32,014 nucleotides of DNA from Acidobacteriota bacterium. GTDB lineage: Bacteria > Acidobacteriota > Thermoanaerobaculia > Multivoradales > J023. Location: assembly GCA_029263395.1 (NCBI GenBank), contig JAJCXO010000155.1:1-32014 (forward strand), given 5' to 3'. Below the pieces are notes generated by a model. The model saw only the letters and a program-made list of their open reading frames with translations. It had not been told where the DNA came from and searched no databases. Position 1 is the first letter of the stretch. Every line of letters begins with the position of its first letter. A program made the position numbers and the translations under genes. Of the stretch, positions 3,828 through 16,059 are shown piece by piece.

Positions 3828-5642
3828 GTGAATCCTTCCAGAGTATCCTCTCAGCGTTTCATCGGCTGCGTCGATTCCGACGGACAAGTACGCGATGCCT
3901 TTGGCAGCTCGGAGTCTTCGCTGACCCTAACGGTCGCCGTCGCACCTGGCAGCTGGTGCGTATTCGCACTGGAGGACGAGCAGGCCCACCCGATTGGGAA
4001 CGTCCTGGCGGCTCCTGGTAGCGCACTCGCCGACCTCTACGCTCTGGCCGCCAGGCGCGGCCTCCAGCCCCTCCACAGCGCCGAGGTCATGGCCGAGACG
4101 GCAAACGCCGTCGCCGAACCAGGCATCGATGATCCAACACTGATTGATCTCACCCGGCTACCCTTCGTCACCATCGACGAGGAGCACAGCAAAGATCTCG
4201 ACCAGGCGCTTTTCATCGAGCGACGCGGCAATGGTTCGACGGTATGGTATGCGATCGCCGACCCGGCATGGTGCGTGCGACCAGGCTCCGCTTTATTCAA
4301 CGCAGCACTTGCCCGCGGCGCCACCTATTACCTTCCCGGCTTGGTTGTCCCGATGTTACCGAGGGAGCTGTCGGAAGGTACGGTTTCCCTCAATCCGCAG
4401 GTGGACCGACGAGCGATGGTGTTCGAGGTCGAGTTGGACCCGACTGGCCGAGTCGAGACCACTCGTATCCATAGGGCACGAGTCCGCAGCCGCGTCAAAA
4501 CGTCTTACGACGCGGTGCAGGCGTTCTACGATGGAGCACCAGCACCGGGCGCCGAGTTAGACGATGGGCAACGCATAGCCGACAGCCTCGAGCGTCTGGC
4601 CGAGGTCGGACAAAGTCGCCTCGCCCTCGCCGAAGCCCGCGACATCGTCGCCATCCGGCGACGCGAGATCGCGGTCTCTCTCTCCGGGCACGAGGGGCTG
4701 CGTTTCGTCGCTTTGACGGACCCACGCCTCGACGTCGAGCGCTACAACGAGCAAATTTCACTGCTGTGCAACATCGAAGGCGCAAGGTTCCTATTGCGCA
4801 ATGATACCAACGATGACCACATCCAGCCGATCTTCCGACTCCATGAACCGCCCACCGAGCAGCGATTGGAAGAATTGGCCCTCCAAATTGACGCCATTGT
4901 CCAGCTACACGGGCTCGAGGGTGAACTCTGGCACTGGCGGCACGGCCAGCAGAGCCTTGCCGACTATCTGAGAGCCTTGCCGGAAAGCGGCACCGAAGCC
5001 CGTACCGCACGCGCCATCCACCGCCAAGCCATGCTGGTCGGAGGGCGTTCGATGTTTGCCGACGAGCCTGGGACTCACTACGGTGTCGGAGCCGACGTCT
5101 ACGGCCGCTTTACGGCGCCGATGCGCGAGATCGTCGGCATCTTCGAGCACAAGGAAACATGGGAGAAGCTCGCTCTCGTACAAGGCTCGGCGCCAGCCAC
5201 GACAGCCCAAAACCGGCGCGCCGATGAGCTACTACGCCAGTCGGTGGTCGAGGCTGCCAATCGATCACGACAAACCCAGCGGGAGTTGGACAAGGAGGTC
5301 AACCGGCGTGTTCTGGATCAACTCTTCGGCGAAGATCTCTTGCTCCCAATCGACCAGCGCCCGTGGCGCCCCGGCACCATCCTCGGTATCTCTCGCTCCA
5401 AGATCCACATTGGCCTCGATGATCCACCGATCGATCTCAAGATCTACATCCACCATCTGCAGGACTGTCACCAACATCGGATCGCCCAAGGGCGCGATCG
5501 GATGACCCTGAGAAACCTGTCGACGGGAGAGCGCCTGCGAGCGGTTGGAGACGCAGTGATCGTCAAGACATTGGAGCGTGATCTCGACCGCGATCGCTGG
5601 CGACTCGATCTAGCAAGTTGCGGCGAACCGACTCCCTGCTGA
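3828..5642 (+). CDS. RNB-domain ribonuclease (RNase II/R family, short form)
   Basis: The 604-residue protein is expected to be a processive 3'-to-5' exoribonuclease of the RNB family (PF00773). The active-site stretch is T-I-D117-E-E-H-S-K-D123-L-D125-Q-A-L, and downstream Y-G-R-F-T-A-P-M-R-E-I near residue 425 matches the second RNB motif (normally H-F-T-S-P-I-R-R). The fourth Asp of E. coli RNase II (Asp210) is Gln126. I recall the same D-L-D-Q form in actinobacterial RNB proteins, so this is probably a subfamily trait. It is shorter than RNase R; the N-terminal about 90 residues do not show clear cold-shock folds, and the C-terminal region (about 505-600) may be a small S1-like domain. 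The start is GTG. The acetamidase gene follows after 22 bp. Confidence 0.88.
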   Translation: MNPSRVSSQRFIGCVDSDGQVRDAFGSSESSLTLTVAVAPGSWCVFALEDEQAHPIGNVLAAPGSALADLYALAARRGLQPLHSAEVMAETANAVAEPGIDDPTLIDLTRLPFVTIDEEHSKDLDQALFIERRGNGSTVWYAIADPAWCVRPGSALFNAALARGATYYLPGLVVPMLPRELSEGTVSLNPQVDRRAMVFEVELDPTGRVETTRIHRARVRSRVKTSYDAVQAFYDGAPAPGAELDDGQRIADSLERLAEVGQSRLALAEARDIVAIRRREIAVSLSGHEGLRFVALTDPRLDVERYNEQISLLCNIEGARFLLRNDTNDDHIQPIFRLHEPPTEQRLEELALQIDAIVQLHGLEGELWHWRHGQQSLADYLRALPESGTEARTARAIHRQAMLVGGRSMFADEPGTHYGVGADVYGRFTAPMREIVGIFEHKETWEKLALVQGSAPATTAQNRRADELLRQSVVEAANRSRQTQRELDKEVNRRVLDQLFGEDLLLPIDQRPWRPGTILGISRSKIHIGLDDPPIDLKIYIHHLQDCHQHRIAQGRDRMTLRNLSTGERLRAVGDAVIVKTLERDLDRDRWRLDLASCGEPTPC

Positions 5643-5664
5643 AAGCGCAAGACCTTACGGAGAT

Positions 5665-6714
5665 ATGAACATGAAGCTCTCTCGGACTTCGTCCATCACC
5701 CTATGCCTCGGCTTGTTTTCCTTGGCCTGTGCACCAACCGCCCCCGAGCAGACCGCCAGTGCACCCAGCGACCATGCAAGACCAGTCGCCGGAGAGGCCA
5801 AACTCGAGCCGCAGTTTTCACTCACCGCAGATCAAACCCACAACCGATTCAGTCGAACGATTCCACCGGTCTTGACCGTAGCCTCAGGAGCCATCATCGA
5901 GACTTACACCGAAGAAGCCTCCGATGGTCAGCTGACCGCCGATTCGACGGTGGAAGCCGTCAGCGAGCTCGACTTCGACCCAATCCACCCCTTGACTGGC
6001 CCGATCGCCGTCGAGGGTGCCGAGCCCGGCGACGTTCTCAAAGTCACCTTGCACGAGATTGAGCTCGGGGACTACGGCTGGGTCTCAGTCTCCCCTGGTT
6101 TCGGTTTCCTGGCTGATGAATTCCCCGACGCCTACTTGAAGACGTTTCGCTTCGAGGAGGGAGCCACCACCGTAGCCTTCAGCGATGACATCACGTTGCC
6201 ACTGAACCCGTTTCCCGGTGTGATGGGCGTCGCTCCCGATACCGATGAGCTGCTGTCGACTATTCCGCCCCGCGCCAACGGCGGCAATATGGACAACAAA
6301 TACATGACCGTCGGCACCACCGTTTACTTTCCGGTGTTCGTCGAAGGGGGCCTGTTTTCGATCGGTGACACCCACGCGGTGCAGGGGGATGGCGAAGTCT
6401 GTGGCACCGCGATCGAAGCACCGATGCGGGTTGTGTTCGAGATCGAACTGATCAAAGGTGGTCGACAACTCCCCGAGCCACAGTACGAAACCGACGACTA
6501 CTACGCGGTCACTGCCTTCGCCACCACCATCGACGAAGCGGCGCGCAAGGCCACCCGCTACATGATCGACTATCTGGTGGCGGAGCGTGGGATGGATCGC
6601 ACCGAAGCCTACGTGCTGTGCTCGTTAGCCGGTGACCTCAAGATATCGGAGGTCGTCGATGTTCCCCACGTGCTGGTCAGTATGCACATGCCCAAGGGCA
6701 TCTTCGAGGGTTGA
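5665..6714 (+). CDS. Acetamidase/formamidase-family lipoprotein
   Basis: The 349-residue protein belongs to the FmdA/AmdA family (PF03069), whose members hydrolyse short amides to ammonia and the acid. Family landmarks are visible: G-P-I-A-V-E-G-A-E-P-G-D near 110, P-F-P-G-V-M-G-V-A-P near 185, P-P-R-A-N-G-G-N-M-D-N-K, and G-G-L-F-S-I-G-D-T-H-A-V-Q-G-D-G-E-V. The N-terminus is a signal peptide with lipobox S-L-A-C at Cys22. The protein is therefore predicted to be exported and lipid-anchored, unlike cytosolic acetamidases. It lies 22 bp after the ribonuclease and probably shares its transcript. The substrate cannot be told from sequence. The family call is firm; activity as an amidase is inferred. 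Confidence 0.87.
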   Translation: MNMKLSRTSSITLCLGLFSLACAPTAPEQTASAPSDHARPVAGEAKLEPQFSLTADQTHNRFSRTIPPVLTVASGAIIETYTEEASDGQLTADSTVEAVSELDFDPIHPLTGPIAVEGAEPGDVLKVTLHEIELGDYGWVSVSPGFGFLADEFPDAYLKTFRFEEGATTVAFSDDITLPLNPFPGVMGVAPDTDELLSTIPPRANGGNMDNKYMTVGTTVYFPVFVEGGLFSIGDTHAVQGDGEVCGTAIEAPMRVVFEIELIKGGRQLPEPQYETDDYYAVTAFATTIDEAARKATRYMIDYLVAERGMDRTEAYVLCSLAGDLKISEVVDVPHVLVSMHMPKGIFEG

Positions 6715-6733
6715 CCGACGAGCTCTCTCAGCC

Positions 6734-8761
6734 TCAATCGCGGCGTTGTTCGATGCCTTCGACCGACGGTACCTCGAGGTACTTTTCGAACCAGCCAACA
6801 ACCCGCTGGACAAAGTCGAGTTGATGGGCACGTTCGTTGAGTCCATGAGGTTCTCGGGGATAATGCACCTGCTGTGTCGGCACTTTCTTGATTCGCAAAC
6901 CTGAGTAGAGCTGCATCGCCTGCTCAGGGTGGACACGAACATCTTCGGCTCCGGTGACCACCAGTGTCGGAGTTTTGGCCTGATTGATGTAGGCCATCGG
7001 TGAACGTTGCCAATGCAGCTCAGGCTCGTCGAACCACCAAGAGTCCCAATGCACCACGGACATTTCATGAGGGATGTCAGTGGTACCGGCAAAGGAGATC
7101 CAATTGGTGAGACCTGCAGCCACCACCGAGGCTTGGAAACGCTCCGTCCAGCGGGTCGCCGCCCAGGCGGACATGTAGCCACCATACGACCAACCGCCCG
7201 TTCCGACTCGTTTGCCATCGACCATGCCACGATCGATCAGCGCATCGACGCCAGCCAGAATATCGTCGAACTCCTTGCCCCCAAGATCGTCGTGGTCCGC
7301 CTTGCTGAAAGCGACGCCGCGGCCCTGACTGCCACGATAGTTGGGTTCCAACACCATGAAGCCGCGCGCCGCCAGTACTTGCACTGGGTAGCCCGGGGCC
7401 GATGTCCAACCATTCAGGCTGACGCCTTCGGGACCGCCATGTACCTGCAACACCAACGGGTAGCGTTTGCCTTCCTCGTAGTCCAACGGGTAGGTCAGGA
7501 CACCGCCGATTGTCCAGCCATCGGCCCCTTTCCACTGTGTCGTCTCTTGGCGTGCTAGCCGGACCCCCTCGAGCTGTGCACTGTGGTGACTCAGCTGCCG
7601 CGGCGCCTCACCGCTCGAGCCCGCCACAAAAAGCTCCGCTGGATGCTGGGGTGAGCTCGCGGCGACTGCCCAGCGGTCACCAACAACGTCCATTGACCGG
7701 ATGATCAGCGGCGGCCAGGCGACCGCAGTTCGTTTGCCGCTGGCGACATCGATGTGGTGCACCGCGTTCTGCTCGCCTTCGACCGCCACCATCAGCAAGG
7801 TCTTGTCGTCTTGCCAGGCAATCCGCGTCGCACTGCCCTCATACTCTGGCGTCAGGTTCTGTTGCTCACCACCTCCAAGCGGGACCACGAACACACTCTG
7901 TGCCAACGGATCATTGCGGCTGACCGCACCCAAGAACGCTAGCTGACGACCATCCGGCGAAACCTCCATACCGGCCAATTTGCCCGGAGTCTCAGTCAGC
8001 ACTTCGGCAACGGCAGGCTCTTCGGCCACTGCCGACACGGAGTAAATGCGGGTGTTCAGAAACTCGTCGTCAACCTTGGTGGTCCTGTTGGCTTGGAACA
8101 CCAGTGTCGAGCCGTCTGGACTCCAATGGACCTCGGTCACATCGAGATCGTCACTCAGCACCCGCTGCGCTTCTCTGCTCTCGACTTCGAGCAGCCACAA
8201 GTGCCGAAATTTGGGGTCTTCGTCGAACACTTCCCAGTCCTGACCGGCTTCCTTCGCTTCCTTGACGTCCTTAGGTTCCTCATCGGTGGCGGCGAAAGCG
8301 ATCCGGCGCCCGTCGGGGGACCAACGATACCCAGAGACCGAGCCCTTGTGCTCGGTCAGTGCTCTCGCCTCTCCCCCATCTACCGGGATTGCGTAGATCT
8401 GGACACCATCGTGCGCTTGCTTACGTTCGACTCGAAACGTTACCCAACGGCCATCGGGCGAAAAAGCCGGCGAGCTCACTCCCTCCTTACCAACCGTGAA
8501 CCTCCTGGGCTCACCACCCTCAACTCGGGTCAACCAAAGCTCGGAATACGAACCGCCAGGATCGTCGCCTTCAGCTCGTGGCACGCTCAGCGTGTAAGCG
8601 ATCATCAACCCGTCCGGGGACAGCGCGACTGCATTGACCCGCCCGAGATCAACCAACATTTCCGGCGTCAAACCCTCGACGCCAGAGTCGACTTGAGCCC
8701 AGGAACAGCAGGCTACGGTGGCGCAGACAACAAAACTAAACAGGACAACATGGGGCTTCAT
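6734..8761 (-). CDS. Exported S9-family (prolyl oligopeptidase-like) peptidase
   Basis: The 675-residue protein has a signal peptide (MKPHVVLFSFVVCATVACC, cut near SWA-Q), a seven-bladed-type N-terminal propeller and a C-terminal alpha/beta-hydrolase domain. The propeller shows repeated S-P-D-G motifs such as W-S-P-D-G-R-R-I-A-F and F-S-P-D-G-R-W-V. The nucleophile motif G-W-S-Y-G-G places Ser525; Asp607 (G-A-E-D) and His639 (E-P-H-G) complete the triad. The layout matches acylaminoacyl-peptidase/dipeptidyl-peptidase-type S9 enzymes, which cleave short peptides in the periplasm or outside. The start at 8761 is chosen over an upstream in-frame ATG at 8797 because GAGGAG lies 7 nt before it and the signal peptide begins there. 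It is divergent from the M20 gene. The cleavage preference is not determinable. Confidence 0.93.
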   Translation of the reverse strand: MKPHVVLFSFVVCATVACCSWAQVDSGVEGLTPEMLVDLGRVNAVALSPDGLMIAYTLSVPRAEGDDPGGSYSELWLTRVEGGEPRRFTVGKEGVSSPAFSPDGRWVTFRVERKQAHDGVQIYAIPVDGGEARALTEHKGSVSGYRWSPDGRRIAFAATDEEPKDVKEAKEAGQDWEVFDEDPKFRHLWLLEVESREAQRVLSDDLDVTEVHWSPDGSTLVFQANRTTKVDDEFLNTRIYSVSAVAEEPAVAEVLTETPGKLAGMEVSPDGRQLAFLGAVSRNDPLAQSVFVVPLGGGEQQNLTPEYEGSATRIAWQDDKTLLMVAVEGEQNAVHHIDVASGKRTAVAWPPLIIRSMDVVGDRWAVAASSPQHPAELFVAGSSGEAPRQLSHHSAQLEGVRLARQETTQWKGADGWTIGGVLTYPLDYEEGKRYPLVLQVHGGPEGVSLNGWTSAPGYPVQVLAARGFMVLEPNYRGSQGRGVAFSKADHDDLGGKEFDDILAGVDALIDRGMVDGKRVGTGGWSYGGYMSAWAATRWTERFQASVVAAGLTNWISFAGTTDIPHEMSVVHWDSWWFDEPELHWQRSPMAYINQAKTPTLVVTGAEDVRVHPEQAMQLYSGLRIKKVPTQQVHYPREPHGLNERAHQLDFVQRVVGWFEKYLEVPSVEGIEQRRD

Positions 8762-11969: not shown

Positions 11970-12818
11970 TCAGAGTCTGGTGACGGATCTCTGGCGGAGA
12001 ACTGCCTCGTAGCCAGCTCGATAATCCGGATATCGGAATTCATATCCGGTGGCTAGCAGCCGACGATTGGAGCAGCGTTTGTTGGCGCTCATCCGCCGAC
12101 GACTGGTGTCACGGTCGGCGGCGGTTGAGGGTTCGGACACTCTCAGACGACGGGCCAGCCAACGCTTGACCTCACCATCCGGGGCCGGTTCATGGTCGAC
12201 GCCGAGATAAATCGACTCCGGTTCCGATAGCTGCCCGAGGTGACGCAGCATGCCAGCACAATCGTCGACATGGATGCGGTTCGTGTAAAGCGGCGGATCG
12301 TCCCAGCACACCGCCTCGCCATTGCGTACCGACTCGATCAGGCGAGTACGGCCAGGGCCATAGATACCGGCGAATCGCACCACCACCGTATATCGGTCGG
12401 CCTCGGACAGCAGACGCTCGGCCTCTAGAATCTTGTGCCCGCGAAAGCTCGCAGGGTTGGTAGCGGACTCTTCGTCGACCCAACCGCCATCGTCCTGGCC
12501 GTAGACCGAGGTACTGGAAACGAACAACAGTCTGCCACTGGTGGTCGCCGCCAATAGATTGCGTAGCCCGTCAACATAAGCCCGCTGATAGGCTTTTTCC
12601 GTCGATTGATCTGCGGCAGCGATGTAGACCACCTGGTCGAGATCCCTGGGCAAGGCGACCAGGCTCGCCGGGTCGGTGAGATCAGCCGCGAGGCCGATCA
12701 GGTTACTCGGTAGCAGCTCCGGCCGGCGGCGCAGCCCCCAGACGCGATGTCCGTCGGCAACCAACTGCAGCCCTAGACGGGTACCCACGTCCCCACATCC
12801 GGCAATCAAGATACGCAT
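11970..12818 (-). CDS. NAD-dependent epimerase/dehydratase-family (SDR, YeeZ-like) protein
   Basis: The 282-residue Rossmann protein has the nucleotide-binding motif G-C-G-D-V-G-T-R-L-G at residues 7-16, then F-V-S-S-T-S-V-Y-G, the extended-SDR motif for the active-site Ser and substrate loop, and R-F-A-G-I-Y-G-P-G-R. The catalytic Y-x-x-x-K appears as F-R-G-H-K, lacking the tyrosine. Loss of this Tyr, together with an arginine-rich C-terminus (R-R-R-M-S-A-N-K-R), resembles the YeeZ/YbjS-like atypical SDRs, whose reactions are unknown. No good ribosome binding site precedes the ATG; an 8-bp palindrome GTTCGAAC lies immediately upstream (12820-12827). It is convergent with the PQQ-like gene and downstream of, but 53 bp from, the repeat-protein gene. 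Confidence 0.85.
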   Translation of the reverse strand: MRILIAGCGDVGTRLGLQLVADGHRVWGLRRRPELLPSNLIGLAADLTDPASLVALPRDLDQVVYIAAADQSTEKAYQRAYVDGLRNLLAATTSGRLLFVSSTSVYGQDDGGWVDEESATNPASFRGHKILEAERLLSEADRYTVVVRFAGIYGPGRTRLIESVRNGEAVCWDDPPLYTNRIHVDDCAGMLRHLGQLSEPESIYLGVDHEPAPDGEVKRWLARRLRVSEPSTAADRDTSRRRMSANKRCSNRRLLATGYEFRYPDYRAGYEAVLRQRSVTRL

Positions 12819-12871: not shown

Positions 12872-14314
12872 CTAGCCCGAATCTCCCGCAGCTGAGTCCC
12901 TAGCAGCAGGGGCCCTAGACGCAGGGTCCTTGGCAGCAGAGTCTCGCGCCGCCGCCAACGCTTGCTCACGTTGGTGATCGGACGCGATGGATGCTGCGGC
13001 GCGCTCGAACGCCGGTCGCACCTGATCATTGATCGGATAGGCACGAGCGACATTCACCAACAATTGCTGCATCTCGTGGTCAGAGCTGATGTCGAGAGCC
13101 GAGTGCAGAATGGCCTCCATACGCTCCGCTGTAGGCTGTGGGCGCTTAGTAGCGGCGCTCAACACGCGACGGAGATGAAAGTCTTCAGCCAGAGTACCGA
13201 GAGCACGAAAGAAGCTGTCTGGCAAGGTTGCATCGGTGGTCTCGGAGAGTTCGATCAAAAGCTCTGCCAAATCGTAGTCCGAACCGATCGTCTGCGCTGC
13301 GCCTAGGAGTTGGTCGAGCTCCTCTGCTGCCACCCCGGGTCGACGCAAAGCCACTGCTAGGACTTTGCGCAGCTCAAAGTCGGTGTTGATCGAATTCAGA
13401 GCCTGCGTCATACCACCGGGCAGCACCCGATCGGACGGGTACACTGCGACAAAATCGACCAACAGCTCGGCGAGATCGTAGTCGCTCCCGATATTCTGGG
13501 CGGCGTCGATCAGCGTGTCGAAAGCCACCGACTCGAGGTCGGAGCGGGCCAGAAAACCGGCCAGTGCCTGGCGCAGCTCGAAGTCTGAGCCGATCGATCT
13601 TGACGCGGCGACAAAAGCACTAGCCGACTCCTCGTGGACCAATACGTCGCTCGACAATGCCGACAGCATTTTTCGTAACTCGAAGTCGGAGCCAATATCT
13701 CGCCCCATGTGGCGCACTAGACTCTCGAGTTCTTCCGGCGTCGGCTCTGTTTGGGCCAAAACTTGTTCATAGTAGAGCCGCTGGATCTGGTCGCTGTCGA
13801 TCTTGCGAATCTCGGCCAAGATTCCGGAGATTCCAGACGTGTTCAGGAACCGCTCGACCCGACCTTCGGCGTCGAGCCCAGTCGTGCGGTAGATCCGCGG
13901 CAGCACTCCCTCGAGCCAATCTTGGGCGGAGTCGTCAAATTCGGCAGGCTCTCGATTGACGAACCAGGCGATCTCGGGCTCGCCACCAGGACCGGGCGTC
14001 GCTTCCAGGCGAAACCGATCCCCCTCCTTCCTCTCCTCGATTTCGAGGTAGGACTCAGGTTCCACTCTGGCGATGCTGCGCTCGTCGGCGGTCATCTCGA
14101 CTTCACCTTTGAGGTTGACGGTCAGACGCCAGCGCCCTTCACGGATACGAATCCGCTGAACGTCTCCCGTTTTGATGGAATCCACTCCCGAAGACCAGGA
14201 AGCGTGGATCGAAGCGGACTCCCACACCGTGATGACAACCAACGCCAGGAAACATCCCAGCATGATTGGGAACAATTTGGATTGAGTTCGACTGCGCAGC
14301 GGCTCGCCCATCAC
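12872..14314 (-). CDS. Membrane-anchored protein with about eight 34-residue I-G-S-D repeats
   Basis: The 480-residue protein has one N-terminal membrane segment (about 14-31), a beta-rich region (about 45-125) and then helical repeats. The Asp of the I-x-[ST]-D motif recurs at about 175, 210, 244, 278, 312, 346, 378, 412 and 446, a period of 34 residues. From the third clear repeat, Y-D-L-A-E-L-L and F-E-L-R-K-V-L types alternate, giving a 68-residue super-repeat. The tail (455-480) is Ala/Asp/Ser-rich. From memory, similar N-terminal regions and repeats occur in M56/BlaR1-like and anti-sigma-linked proteins of Acidobacteriota and Gemmatimonadota; no peptidase motif is present here. GGAGG at 14321-14325 serves either GTG 14314 (6 nt) or the adjacent ATG 14311 (9 nt). 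It follows hflX by 71 bp. The function is unknown; an alpha-solenoid for protein binding is likely. Confidence 0.85.
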   Translation of the reverse strand: MMGEPLRSRTQSKLFPIMLGCFLALVVITVWESASIHASWSSGVDSIKTGDVQRIRIREGRWRLTVNLKGEVEMTADERSIARVEPESYLEIEERKEGDRFRLEATPGPGGEPEIAWFVNREPAEFDDSAQDWLEGVLPRIYRTTGLDAEGRVERFLNTSGISGILAEIRKIDSDQIQRLYYEQVLAQTEPTPEELESLVRHMGRDIGSDFELRKMLSALSSDVLVHEESASAFVAASRSIGSDFELRQALAGFLARSDLESVAFDTLIDAAQNIGSDYDLAELLVDFVAVYPSDRVLPGGMTQALNSINTDFELRKVLAVALRRPGVAAEELDQLLGAAQTIGSDYDLAELLIELSETTDATLPDSFFRALGTLAEDFHLRRVLSAATKRPQPTAERMEAILHSALDISSDHEMQQLLVNVARAYPINDQVRPAFERAAASIASDHQREQALAAARDSAAKDPASRAPAARDSAAGDSG

Positions 14315-14385
14315 GAGATTCCTCCATCGTTTGCCATTCGGGCCGACATCAAGTCCTATGACGTAAGCGACGGAAGAAAAGTTCG

Positions 14386-16059
14386 CTACTTTGGTCCGGT
14401 TCCGTATTGCGCCATCAGCGGCCGCCCCCGCCCCAGCCCTTCCTCGACCGCGGCAATCAGTCCTTTGATTCCCTGCTTGCTGACCGCGCTGATCGCGACG
14501 CCGTCAAACCGAGCGGTGAGTGACGCCAGCTCACTATCCGGCACCAGGTCTGCTTTGTTGAGCACCACTAGCCTCGGAATGGCATCGAGCTCCAACTCGA
14601 CCAGCAGCTTCTCGACCGCCGCCGCCTTCTCATCCAGTCGCTCGTCAGCGGCATCCAGCACGTGCAGCAATAGATCAGCGTCCGCCAACTCTTCCAATGT
14701 TGCACGGAACGCCGCCAACAAATCCTTGGGAAGATCTGAAATAAAGCCAACGGTGTCGGTGATAACCACTTCACCCTCGCGCGGAAAACGGAGTCTCCGA
14801 CTGGTCGGGTCGAGAGTCATGAAGAGTTGATCGGCGGCTTCGACCTCGCTGCGGGTCATCGCATTCAACAACGTGCTCTTGCCAGCATTGGTGTAGCCGA
14901 TGATCGAGAGGATTGGGATCGCTTCCTCACGTCGGCGGCGACGGCGCAGGTCACGCTGCTGCGATAGCTTTTCGATCTCACGCTCGAGCTTGCCGATCCG
15001 ATCGCGCAAGCGACGACGACCGATTTCCAACACTGTTTCACCGGGTCCCCGACCACCGATGCCACCAGCAAGGCGAGACAGCCCAGCATCTTTGTCGGTC
15101 AGACGCGGCAAGGAGTAGCGCAGCTGGGCGAGCTCGACTTGTAGCTTGCCGTCTCGGCTCTTTGCTCGTTGGGCAAAAATATCGAGGATCAGCTGAGTAC
15201 GGTCGATCGCCTTGAGACCGGTGAAATCCTCGAAGGCCCTAGCTTGGGCCGGCCGGAGGTCGATGTCGAAGATCGCAACGTCCGCTCGCAGACGCATACT
15301 CTCGAAGACGATTTCGGTCAATTTGCCTCGGCCAACTACGGTCTTGGGATGGACCCGTTGACGCTTCTGACGCATGGTCCCGGCAACTGTGACGCCCGCT
15401 GCCGCGACCAGTTCCTGAGTCTCCGCGAAGTGTCCATCGTCCATCGTGACACCGATGACCAACGCCCGTTCTTTCTGCGTTTCGCCCGCCGCTCCGCGGG
15501 TGAGTCGCGTCAATTCATCCTCGAGCGCTCGGATCTCAGCCTCGAAGTCAAGATCGAGACGATGGATGTCACGGGCTTCGAAGCGTCGGAAGAAGTCACC
15601 GAACTCGCCGCTGTCGTCACCGCTGCCGCTCGGCGACAACAGTGCGACCTCGACCTCTTTCGCTTCACCGGAAGCGGACACCTGAATCACCGCCACCGCG
15701 TCGAGCCGCAGCAGCGCCAGATCGTTCAGATCGTCGGCGGACAGCGGCTCGCCGCGAAGATGTGTGTGGACCAGCCGCAATCCTCGAAACCGTCCAACGC
15801 CGCCCCGCAAACGGCCAATGTCCGGCAGATGCAGCTGGGTCGCATCGCCGACGACGACATTGCGGATCGTCCCCTCGCGAGACACTACAACACCAACTTG
15901 CCGCCCCAAGTCACGCGAGACTTTGGCGAGGTGCTTCGCAAGCTCCGGCGAGACCACTTCTGTAGATGTCATACGACGACGATAGGTACGCTCGAGAGCG
16001 CGCTTCATCGAGGTTTTGATGCCGCGGAGATTGCCGTCTATGTGATGCGAGATAACCAA
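14386..16059 (-). CDS. hflX: GTPase HflX, long form
   Basis: The 557-residue ribosome-associated GTPase is expected to split stalled or hibernating 70S ribosomes. Domain order: an N-terminal extension (1-190) opening with the G-N-L-R-G-I-K stretch typical of long HflX proteins; the HflX subdomain (about 200-375) with G-G-R-G-P-G-E at 335-341 and the basic coiled linker R-R-R-R-R-R at 372-377; then the G domain with G1 G-Y-T-N-A-G-K-S at 388-395, G3 D-T-V-G at 435-438, G4 N-K-A-D at 501-504 and G5 S-A-V-S near 524. The start is a TTG at 16059 whose AGGAGG lies only 1 nt away; an in-frame ATC at 16053 is spaced 7 nt from it. It lies 26 bp after the DUF3604 gene, same transcript. Confidence 0.95.
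   Translation of the reverse strand: MVISHHIDGNLRGIKTSMKRALERTYRRRMTSTEVVSPELAKHLAKVSRDLGRQVGVVVSREGTIRNVVVGDATQLHLPDIGRLRGGVGRFRGLRLVHTHLRGEPLSADDLNDLALLRLDAVAVIQVSASGEAKEVEVALLSPSGSGDDSGEFGDFFRRFEARDIHRLDLDFEAEIRALEDELTRLTRGAAGETQKERALVIGVTMDDGHFAETQELVAAAGVTVAGTMRQKRQRVHPKTVVGRGKLTEIVFESMRLRADVAIFDIDLRPAQARAFEDFTGLKAIDRTQLILDIFAQRAKSRDGKLQVELAQLRYSLPRLTDKDAGLSRLAGGIGGRGPGETVLEIGRRRLRDRIGKLEREIEKLSQQRDLRRRRRREEAIPILSIIGYTNAGKSTLLNAMTRSEVEAADQLFMTLDPTSRRLRFPREGEVVITDTVGFISDLPKDLLAAFRATLEELADADLLLHVLDAADERLDEKAAAVEKLLVELELDAIPRLVVLNKADLVPDSELASLTARFDGVAISAVSKQGIKGLIAAVEEGLGRGRPLMAQYGTGPK

Follow-up and report, generated by a model that had tools for sequence, protein, structure and literature searches.

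A protein of beta platform and 34-residue alpha-solenoid beside hflX in an Acidobacteriota genome: a probable stand-alone copy of a module from the sensor position of M56/BlaR1 receptors

Here, we describe a gene that follows hflX on the minus strand in a window of 32,014 nucleotides (the whole stretch of DNA that was analysed) from an Acidobacteriota genome, together with the two-part protein that it encodes (Table 1). A preliminary description had placed the reading frame at exactly these coordinates and had left the strand unstated; it is the minus strand, the plus-strand reading of the same interval holding 7 stops. A promoter/terminator scan of the window returned counts close to those of shuffled sequences, so that an operon structure around the gene is not demonstrated. 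No MacB/FtsX permease adjoins the gene, and no BlaI gene was found in the whole window. The neighbouring HflX has about 205 extra amino acids at its N-terminus (15445-16059, minus strand), with the conserved motif HTHLRGE-x-L-[ST]-x-DDLNDL. This stretch gave no Pfam match at E<=1, whether from the window or from locus L043, and is also conserved in genomes G299 (full motif) and G301 (N-terminal part compared). We take its motif to be reminiscent of JAMM metallopeptidase motifs.

Table 1. Features of the gene, its product and its two neighbours
Feature	Position	Strand	Basis or remark
Gene of the free beta+solenoid protein	12872..14314	minus	480 aa; GTG start, next codon ATG
GGAGG, possible ribosome-binding site	14321..14325	minus	by reading the sequence
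N-terminal membrane helix, about aa 12-35	14210..14281	minus	hydropathy; R7, R9 and K13 ahead
Beta domain, aa 42-124, nine short strands	13943..14191	minus	AlphaFold
Two helices linking beta domain to solenoid, aa 128-170	13805..13933	minus	AlphaFold and alignment
Alpha-alpha solenoid, nine units of ~34 aa, aa 172-462	12929..13801	minus	self-comparison and AlphaFold
Ala/Ser/Asp-rich C-terminal tail, aa 463-480	12875..12928	minus	overlaps 15-bp tandem repeat
hflX, upstream neighbour, 71 bp gap	14386..16059	minus	TIGR03156, E 1.6e-126
NAD-dependent epimerase-type gene, downstream neighbour, 53 bp gap	11970..12818	minus	

Hydropathy finds one hydrophobic segment in the protein, as against about four membrane helices in M56/BlaR1 receptor peptidases, and the basic residues R7, R9 and K13 that precede it suggest an N-in, C-out topology. 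The protein contains no HExxH motif and gave no Pfam match at E<=0.1, M56 and penicillin-binding/beta-lactamase domains included. AlphaFold, run on a 14-row alignment, predicts a beta platform joined to an alpha-alpha solenoid (mean pLDDT 85.7, pTM 0.77); pLDDT falls under 50 at aa 1-4 and 7-42, which cover the membrane helix, and reaches 92.4 when the beta domain is folded with the next two helices. In these linker helices G146, A149 and G161 are invariant among the 14 aligned proteins. The earlier picture of a single-pass protein with a beta domain ahead of its repeats and with no peptidase thus stands. At the other end, a 15-bp tandem repeat (12898-12939; 2.8 copies, 74% matches) encodes the Ala/Ser/Asp-rich tail, and is missing in the shorter protein of the sister species, G298.

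The repeats had been put at eight or more units of 34 residues, and we count nine, starting at aa 172, 207, 241, 275, 309, 343, 375, 409 and 443, with spacings of 35, 34, 34, 34, 34, 32, 34 and 34. Self-comparison of aa 196-455 gave z = 8.3 at lag 34 and z = 8.8 at lag 68, the top z at any lag in a shuffle control (n=500) being 4.26. The score is also higher at lag 68 (0.50) than at lag 34 (0.37), in agreement with the alternation of YDLAE and FELRK types that had been proposed; from aa 207 the unit classes run FELRK, FELRQ, YDLAE, FELRK, YDLAE, FHLRR, HEMQQ and HQREQ, so that the two types alternate strictly no earlier than aa 241, and the pattern weakens in the last units. AlphaFold models the A-helices, counted from aa 210, with 14, 12, 14, 12, 14, 11, 14 and 17 residues, and the B-helices with 11, 11, 8, 11, 7, 11 and 9; in this model the alternating A-helix lengths correspond to the two classes of repeat. 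Among relatives, 21 proteins had at least 5 detected units, and in 18 of them a unit resembles the next but one more than its direct neighbour. When the unit order was permuted, just 6 of these 21 reached p<0.05; the window protein, where the finder took in 5 of the 9 units, had p=0.10.

Position 3 of the repeat motif is S or T in eight units and E in one, and the modelled A-helix begins one residue past it in all nine, for which reason we consider the IGSD signature a probable helix cap. An S-D-x-E sequence at a helix start is a capping box, and on the predicted structure S-D-x-E is here read as a helix N-cap. A catalytic or metal-binding function of IGSD was rejected, given that the S, T or E caps the helix in each of the nine modelled units. 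Family-wide, position 3 holds S in 97% of 151 units, a value biased by a unit finder that required S, T or N there.

Compared as a whole with known structures, the model had its best VIA-align matches among HEAT/ARM proteins (6iur_E, Z 14.1, rmsd 7.6, 255 aligned), at a Z that is common among helical repeats. In a whole-model structure search, designed repeat proteins came up at E 8.3e-4 with TM-scores no higher than 0.13, and the best match in a viral structure library was an uncharacterised megavirus protein (E 1.1e-4, TM 0.46). For the fold of the beta domain there was no confident match, the best being C1QBP/p32 in Foldseek (E 0.019) and Z 5.6 in VIA-align. No known enzyme fold, a match to which had been named in advance as evidence against the preliminary description, stood out among the best 50 matches listed per structure search. 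Like HEAT/ARM and TPR solenoids, the module consists of two-helix units that form a superhelix, and it shares with TPR, whose period is 34, both the period and the two helices per unit; it differs from all three in its own signature, I-x-S-D-[YF]-E, and in a 68-residue super-period of two units. The window protein gave no HEAT or TPR Pfam match at E<=0.5, and two of 12 members, the window protein not among them, had weak HEAT_2 matches (best E 0.053).

With the window protein as query, 15 of 297 sampled genomes of the phylum gave matches, and the module was found in 4 of the 7 genomes of the family. A 12-row profile matched 54 of 396 phylum genomes, many of them through the beta domain alone in M56-sized frames, and 15 of 72 genomes of the order. 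Records with a taxonomic name that contain the module belong to Acidobacteria, Gemmatimonadales, Candidatus Kutchimonas, Latescibacterota, Lysobacterales, Zixiibacteriota and Chitinophagales. The M56-type frames L094-L105 and L110-L115 match the beta domain and are without the solenoid, and in L056 (4895-8536), where the M56 protein is of Zixiibacteriota and 1213 aa long, a second beta-domain match precedes the full module. Elsewhere the searches gave little: in NCBIfam 6 single members were matched, all at E 0.014 or weaker and none clearly; the best PDB sequence was VanA at E 0.45, which we take as chance and not as a relative; viral contigs held no relative of the module; PHROGs left the window protein unmatched, two families being weakly matched by 1-2 of 14 members; and a first scan of genome contigs with the window protein returned 31 pattern matches with no relative among them. 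In the literature searched we recognised no description of the beta+solenoid module. The beta+IxSD module is one for which no curated family name was found, and it has no clear match in Pfam or NCBIfam; M56-BlaI systems themselves are already known.

It is to these systems that the protein is related. With the window protein as the sole query, M56 proteins are matched at E values down to 4.6e-47, and the homology to the C-termini of fused M56 proteins spans the full length of the module, beta domain and solenoid. All seven fused ORFs tested contain PF05569, which bears out the earlier statement that the repeat type occurs in M56/BlaR1-like proteins. In the fused proteins the module comes after the last predicted membrane helix; a passage in PMC9834060 likewise describes the BlaR1 sensor as extracellular and C-terminal, after the membrane helices. 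A BlaI-like ORF lies beside 15 of the 16 fused loci, the exception, L117, running off its contig and owing its M56 assignment to a reading of partial sequence; ten of the 16 were themselves the source of the BlaI profile, so that their matches follow by construction, and among the remaining six the count is five. PF03965 was confirmed in all four of the BlaI matches tested outside the profile donors. Beside the 15 loci with no demonstrable M56 part (L050 being unclassified because of masked sequence upstream, and L044, L045 and L051 being close relatives) no BlaI-like ORF was found. The N-termini of free modules are signal-peptide-like, lipobox-like (L026, L055 and L116, by eye) or single-helix.

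Set beside M56/BlaR1-BlaI pairs such as Staphylococcus BlaR1 and the cyanobacterial PetP-PetR, the latter presented in PMC7896320 as a BlaR1/BlaI system for signals other than beta-lactams, the module makes up the C-terminus of many M56 proteins that adjoin BlaI. The window protein, by contrast, has no M56 domain, one membrane helix rather than four, and no BlaI nearby. The module also differs from the BlaR1 sensor, which is class D beta-lactamase-like, in being a beta platform with a solenoid instead. How often the two architectures have interchanged can be read from a 30-row tree, where at least 7 fused/free changes are needed and at least 3 are forced by starred branches, many branches being weak; gain and loss are indistinguishable on this tree. 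The free and fused labels are weakly clustered on it (26-27 of 500 shuffles were as low). The N-terminal helix was also considered as a counterpart of the fourth M56 membrane helix and rejected, there being no detectable or consistent sequence match. Since the N-terminus shows no such similarity, descent of the free form through loss of the peptidase is not demonstrated. The repeat type had further been ascribed to anti-sigma-linked proteins, and here one free copy, L053, does follow an ECF sigma factor, as a single case. At that locus (5562-7942) the sigma factor and a small membrane protein with no Pfam match lie directly before the free module gene.

The genome that contains the window has 10 PF05569 matches, 9 of them over the cut-off, and 8 PF03965 matches; BlaI adjoins 8 of the nine M56 loci, and the ninth is a 163-aa frame. 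None of its M56 receptors carries the module, the window protein and the C269 paralogue being the only module copies. PF05569 was found in all 8 of the M56 proteins scanned, and 5 of the 8 have C-terminal Pfam domains, namely HEAT (2), beta-lactamase (1), STN (1) and TonB_C (1); the other three have no such domain, although in one, L126, a different repeat is visible by eye. Because the receptors with HEAT, another repeat, STN, beta-lactamase or TonB_C (L123, L125, L126, L127, L128 and L129) bear differing domains there, the sensor position of the M56 receptors in this genome is modular. Alpha-solenoids are a repeated choice at this position: L123 and L125, PBS-type HEAT M56 receptors, likewise have one there, and differ from the window protein in being peptidase-fused, HEAT by Pfam, and without a match to the beta domain.

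So many receptors in one genome could invite the view that the free module acts as a decoy, or as a co-receptor, by binding the signal of the M56 receptors and tuning them in trans, and there is an analogy in BlaR1, whose sensor domain is released by signal peptidase according to a passage in PMC9834060. A shared signal is speculative, however, since no M56 receptor of this genome has the module and the window has no BlaI, and we regard the decoy as rather improbable. A second view, that the gene is a decaying remnant of an M56 gene, would explain the missing peptidase and BlaI. It is opposed by the open frame and by the orthologue in G298, which is 72% identical, with dN 0.17, dS 1.12 and dN/dS 0.15, all parts of the protein being similarly conserved (70-76%); decay is thus extremely unlikely. 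For comparison, hflX in the same pair of genomes is 90% identical with a dN/dS of 0.05. The module gene is real and under purifying selection, and is evolving faster than hflX.

The position of the gene after hflX had been thought to connect envelope sensing with ribosome rescue. An envelope sensor coupled to HflX could draw on the common strand, on the distance of 71 bp and on the retention of the arrangement in two species of the genus, so that a genus-specific link may exist. A genome-context survey of homologues had been set beforehand as the test of the idea, and it turned up unrelated contexts: when hflX was sought at E 1e-10 around 31 other module loci (30 distinct, L025 and L053 being the same), it was near the module in one, that of G298. 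In G300 and G301, the two further genomes of the family with the module, it and hflX are on different contigs, while in G299 and G246, also of the family, the DUF3604-hflX order is kept with other genes downstream of hflX, and neither the window-protein search nor the profile found a module gene in these two genomes. The epimerase-type gene, for its part, was not found downstream in G298. On these contexts hflX was rejected as a conserved partner, and its adjacency is, as far as two genomes tell, a trait of this genus. With the adjacency limited to its own genus, the window protein is probably an envelope binding scaffold, and coupling to HflX ribosome rescue is very unlikely. The proximity would then be a genus-level accident of position, in which transcription is possibly shared and function is not. 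The hflX adjacency of the module should not be read as a link to translation, and a wrong lead is thereby removed.

In light of this, what might the protein do? On balance we favour the window protein being a stand-alone, peptidase-free copy of the module found at the sensor position of M56/BlaR1 receptors, which probably serves as an inner-membrane-anchored periplasmic binding scaffold uncoupled from proteolytic output. This proposal is based on homology, the missing peptidase and BlaI, purifying selection and the predicted fold; anchoring and binding are inferred. The single helix would tether the protein to the inner membrane and leave the module in the periplasm, as the positive N-terminus implies. 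Along the solenoid, a long groove lined with variable residues would be open to a ligand, whether a protein, a peptide or a product of the envelope, and the geometry would presumably be set by the beta domain together with the two helices that follow it. An M56 receptor would relay the binding of its ligand across the membrane to the zinc peptidase, which removes BlaI; the free form, having lost this output, may do no more than bind, serving another envelope protein as scaffold or co-receptor. Candidate partners would be an M56 receptor in trans, which is unproven because no M56 protein of this genome carries the module, or a MacB/FtsX permease, which has some support.

Indeed, the free module might be a periplasmic subunit of MacB/FtsX-type permeases, which the window protein would reach in trans. 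In 4 of 11 free lineages a MacB_PCD/FtsX permease (Pfam) is the immediate same-strand neighbour, these being the C269 paralogue of the same genome (L027), G259 (L021), G088 (L025/L053) and the L044/L045/L051 group, and in G300 such a permease is one gene away from the module. From the number of PF12704 matches (120 in G000, 133 in G259 and 31 in G088), we estimate, with 1.1 kb allowed for each gene, that at most 2-5% of genes adjoin a permease of this kind; at a background of 5%, 4 of 11 has a chance of about 0.002 by hand calculation, in a comparison conceived after the data were seen. Against this, 7 of the 11 lineages, the window gene among them, are without an adjoining permease (most judged from ORF starts, not Pfam), two loci of the count stop at a contig end, and MacB/FtsX permeases are very numerous in the phylum. 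A general role as permease subunit is therefore unlikely, and we retain the stand-alone scaffold as our reading of the window protein.

A wider and decidedly tentative idea, which we would not yet expect to hold in full, is that of a widespread, uncurated periplasmic recognition module that is either wired to M56-BlaI or free (membrane-anchored, lipoprotein-like or secreted), in some cases with MacB/FtsX, the free copies sharing the ligands of the receptors and tuning export or signalling in trans. M56-BlaI receptors are common in soil bacteria, and a module common to these receptors and to free proteins provides a handle on what the receptors sense. As the free forms are soluble or single-pass, their ligand would be accessible to biochemistry and could then be tested on the M56 receptors.
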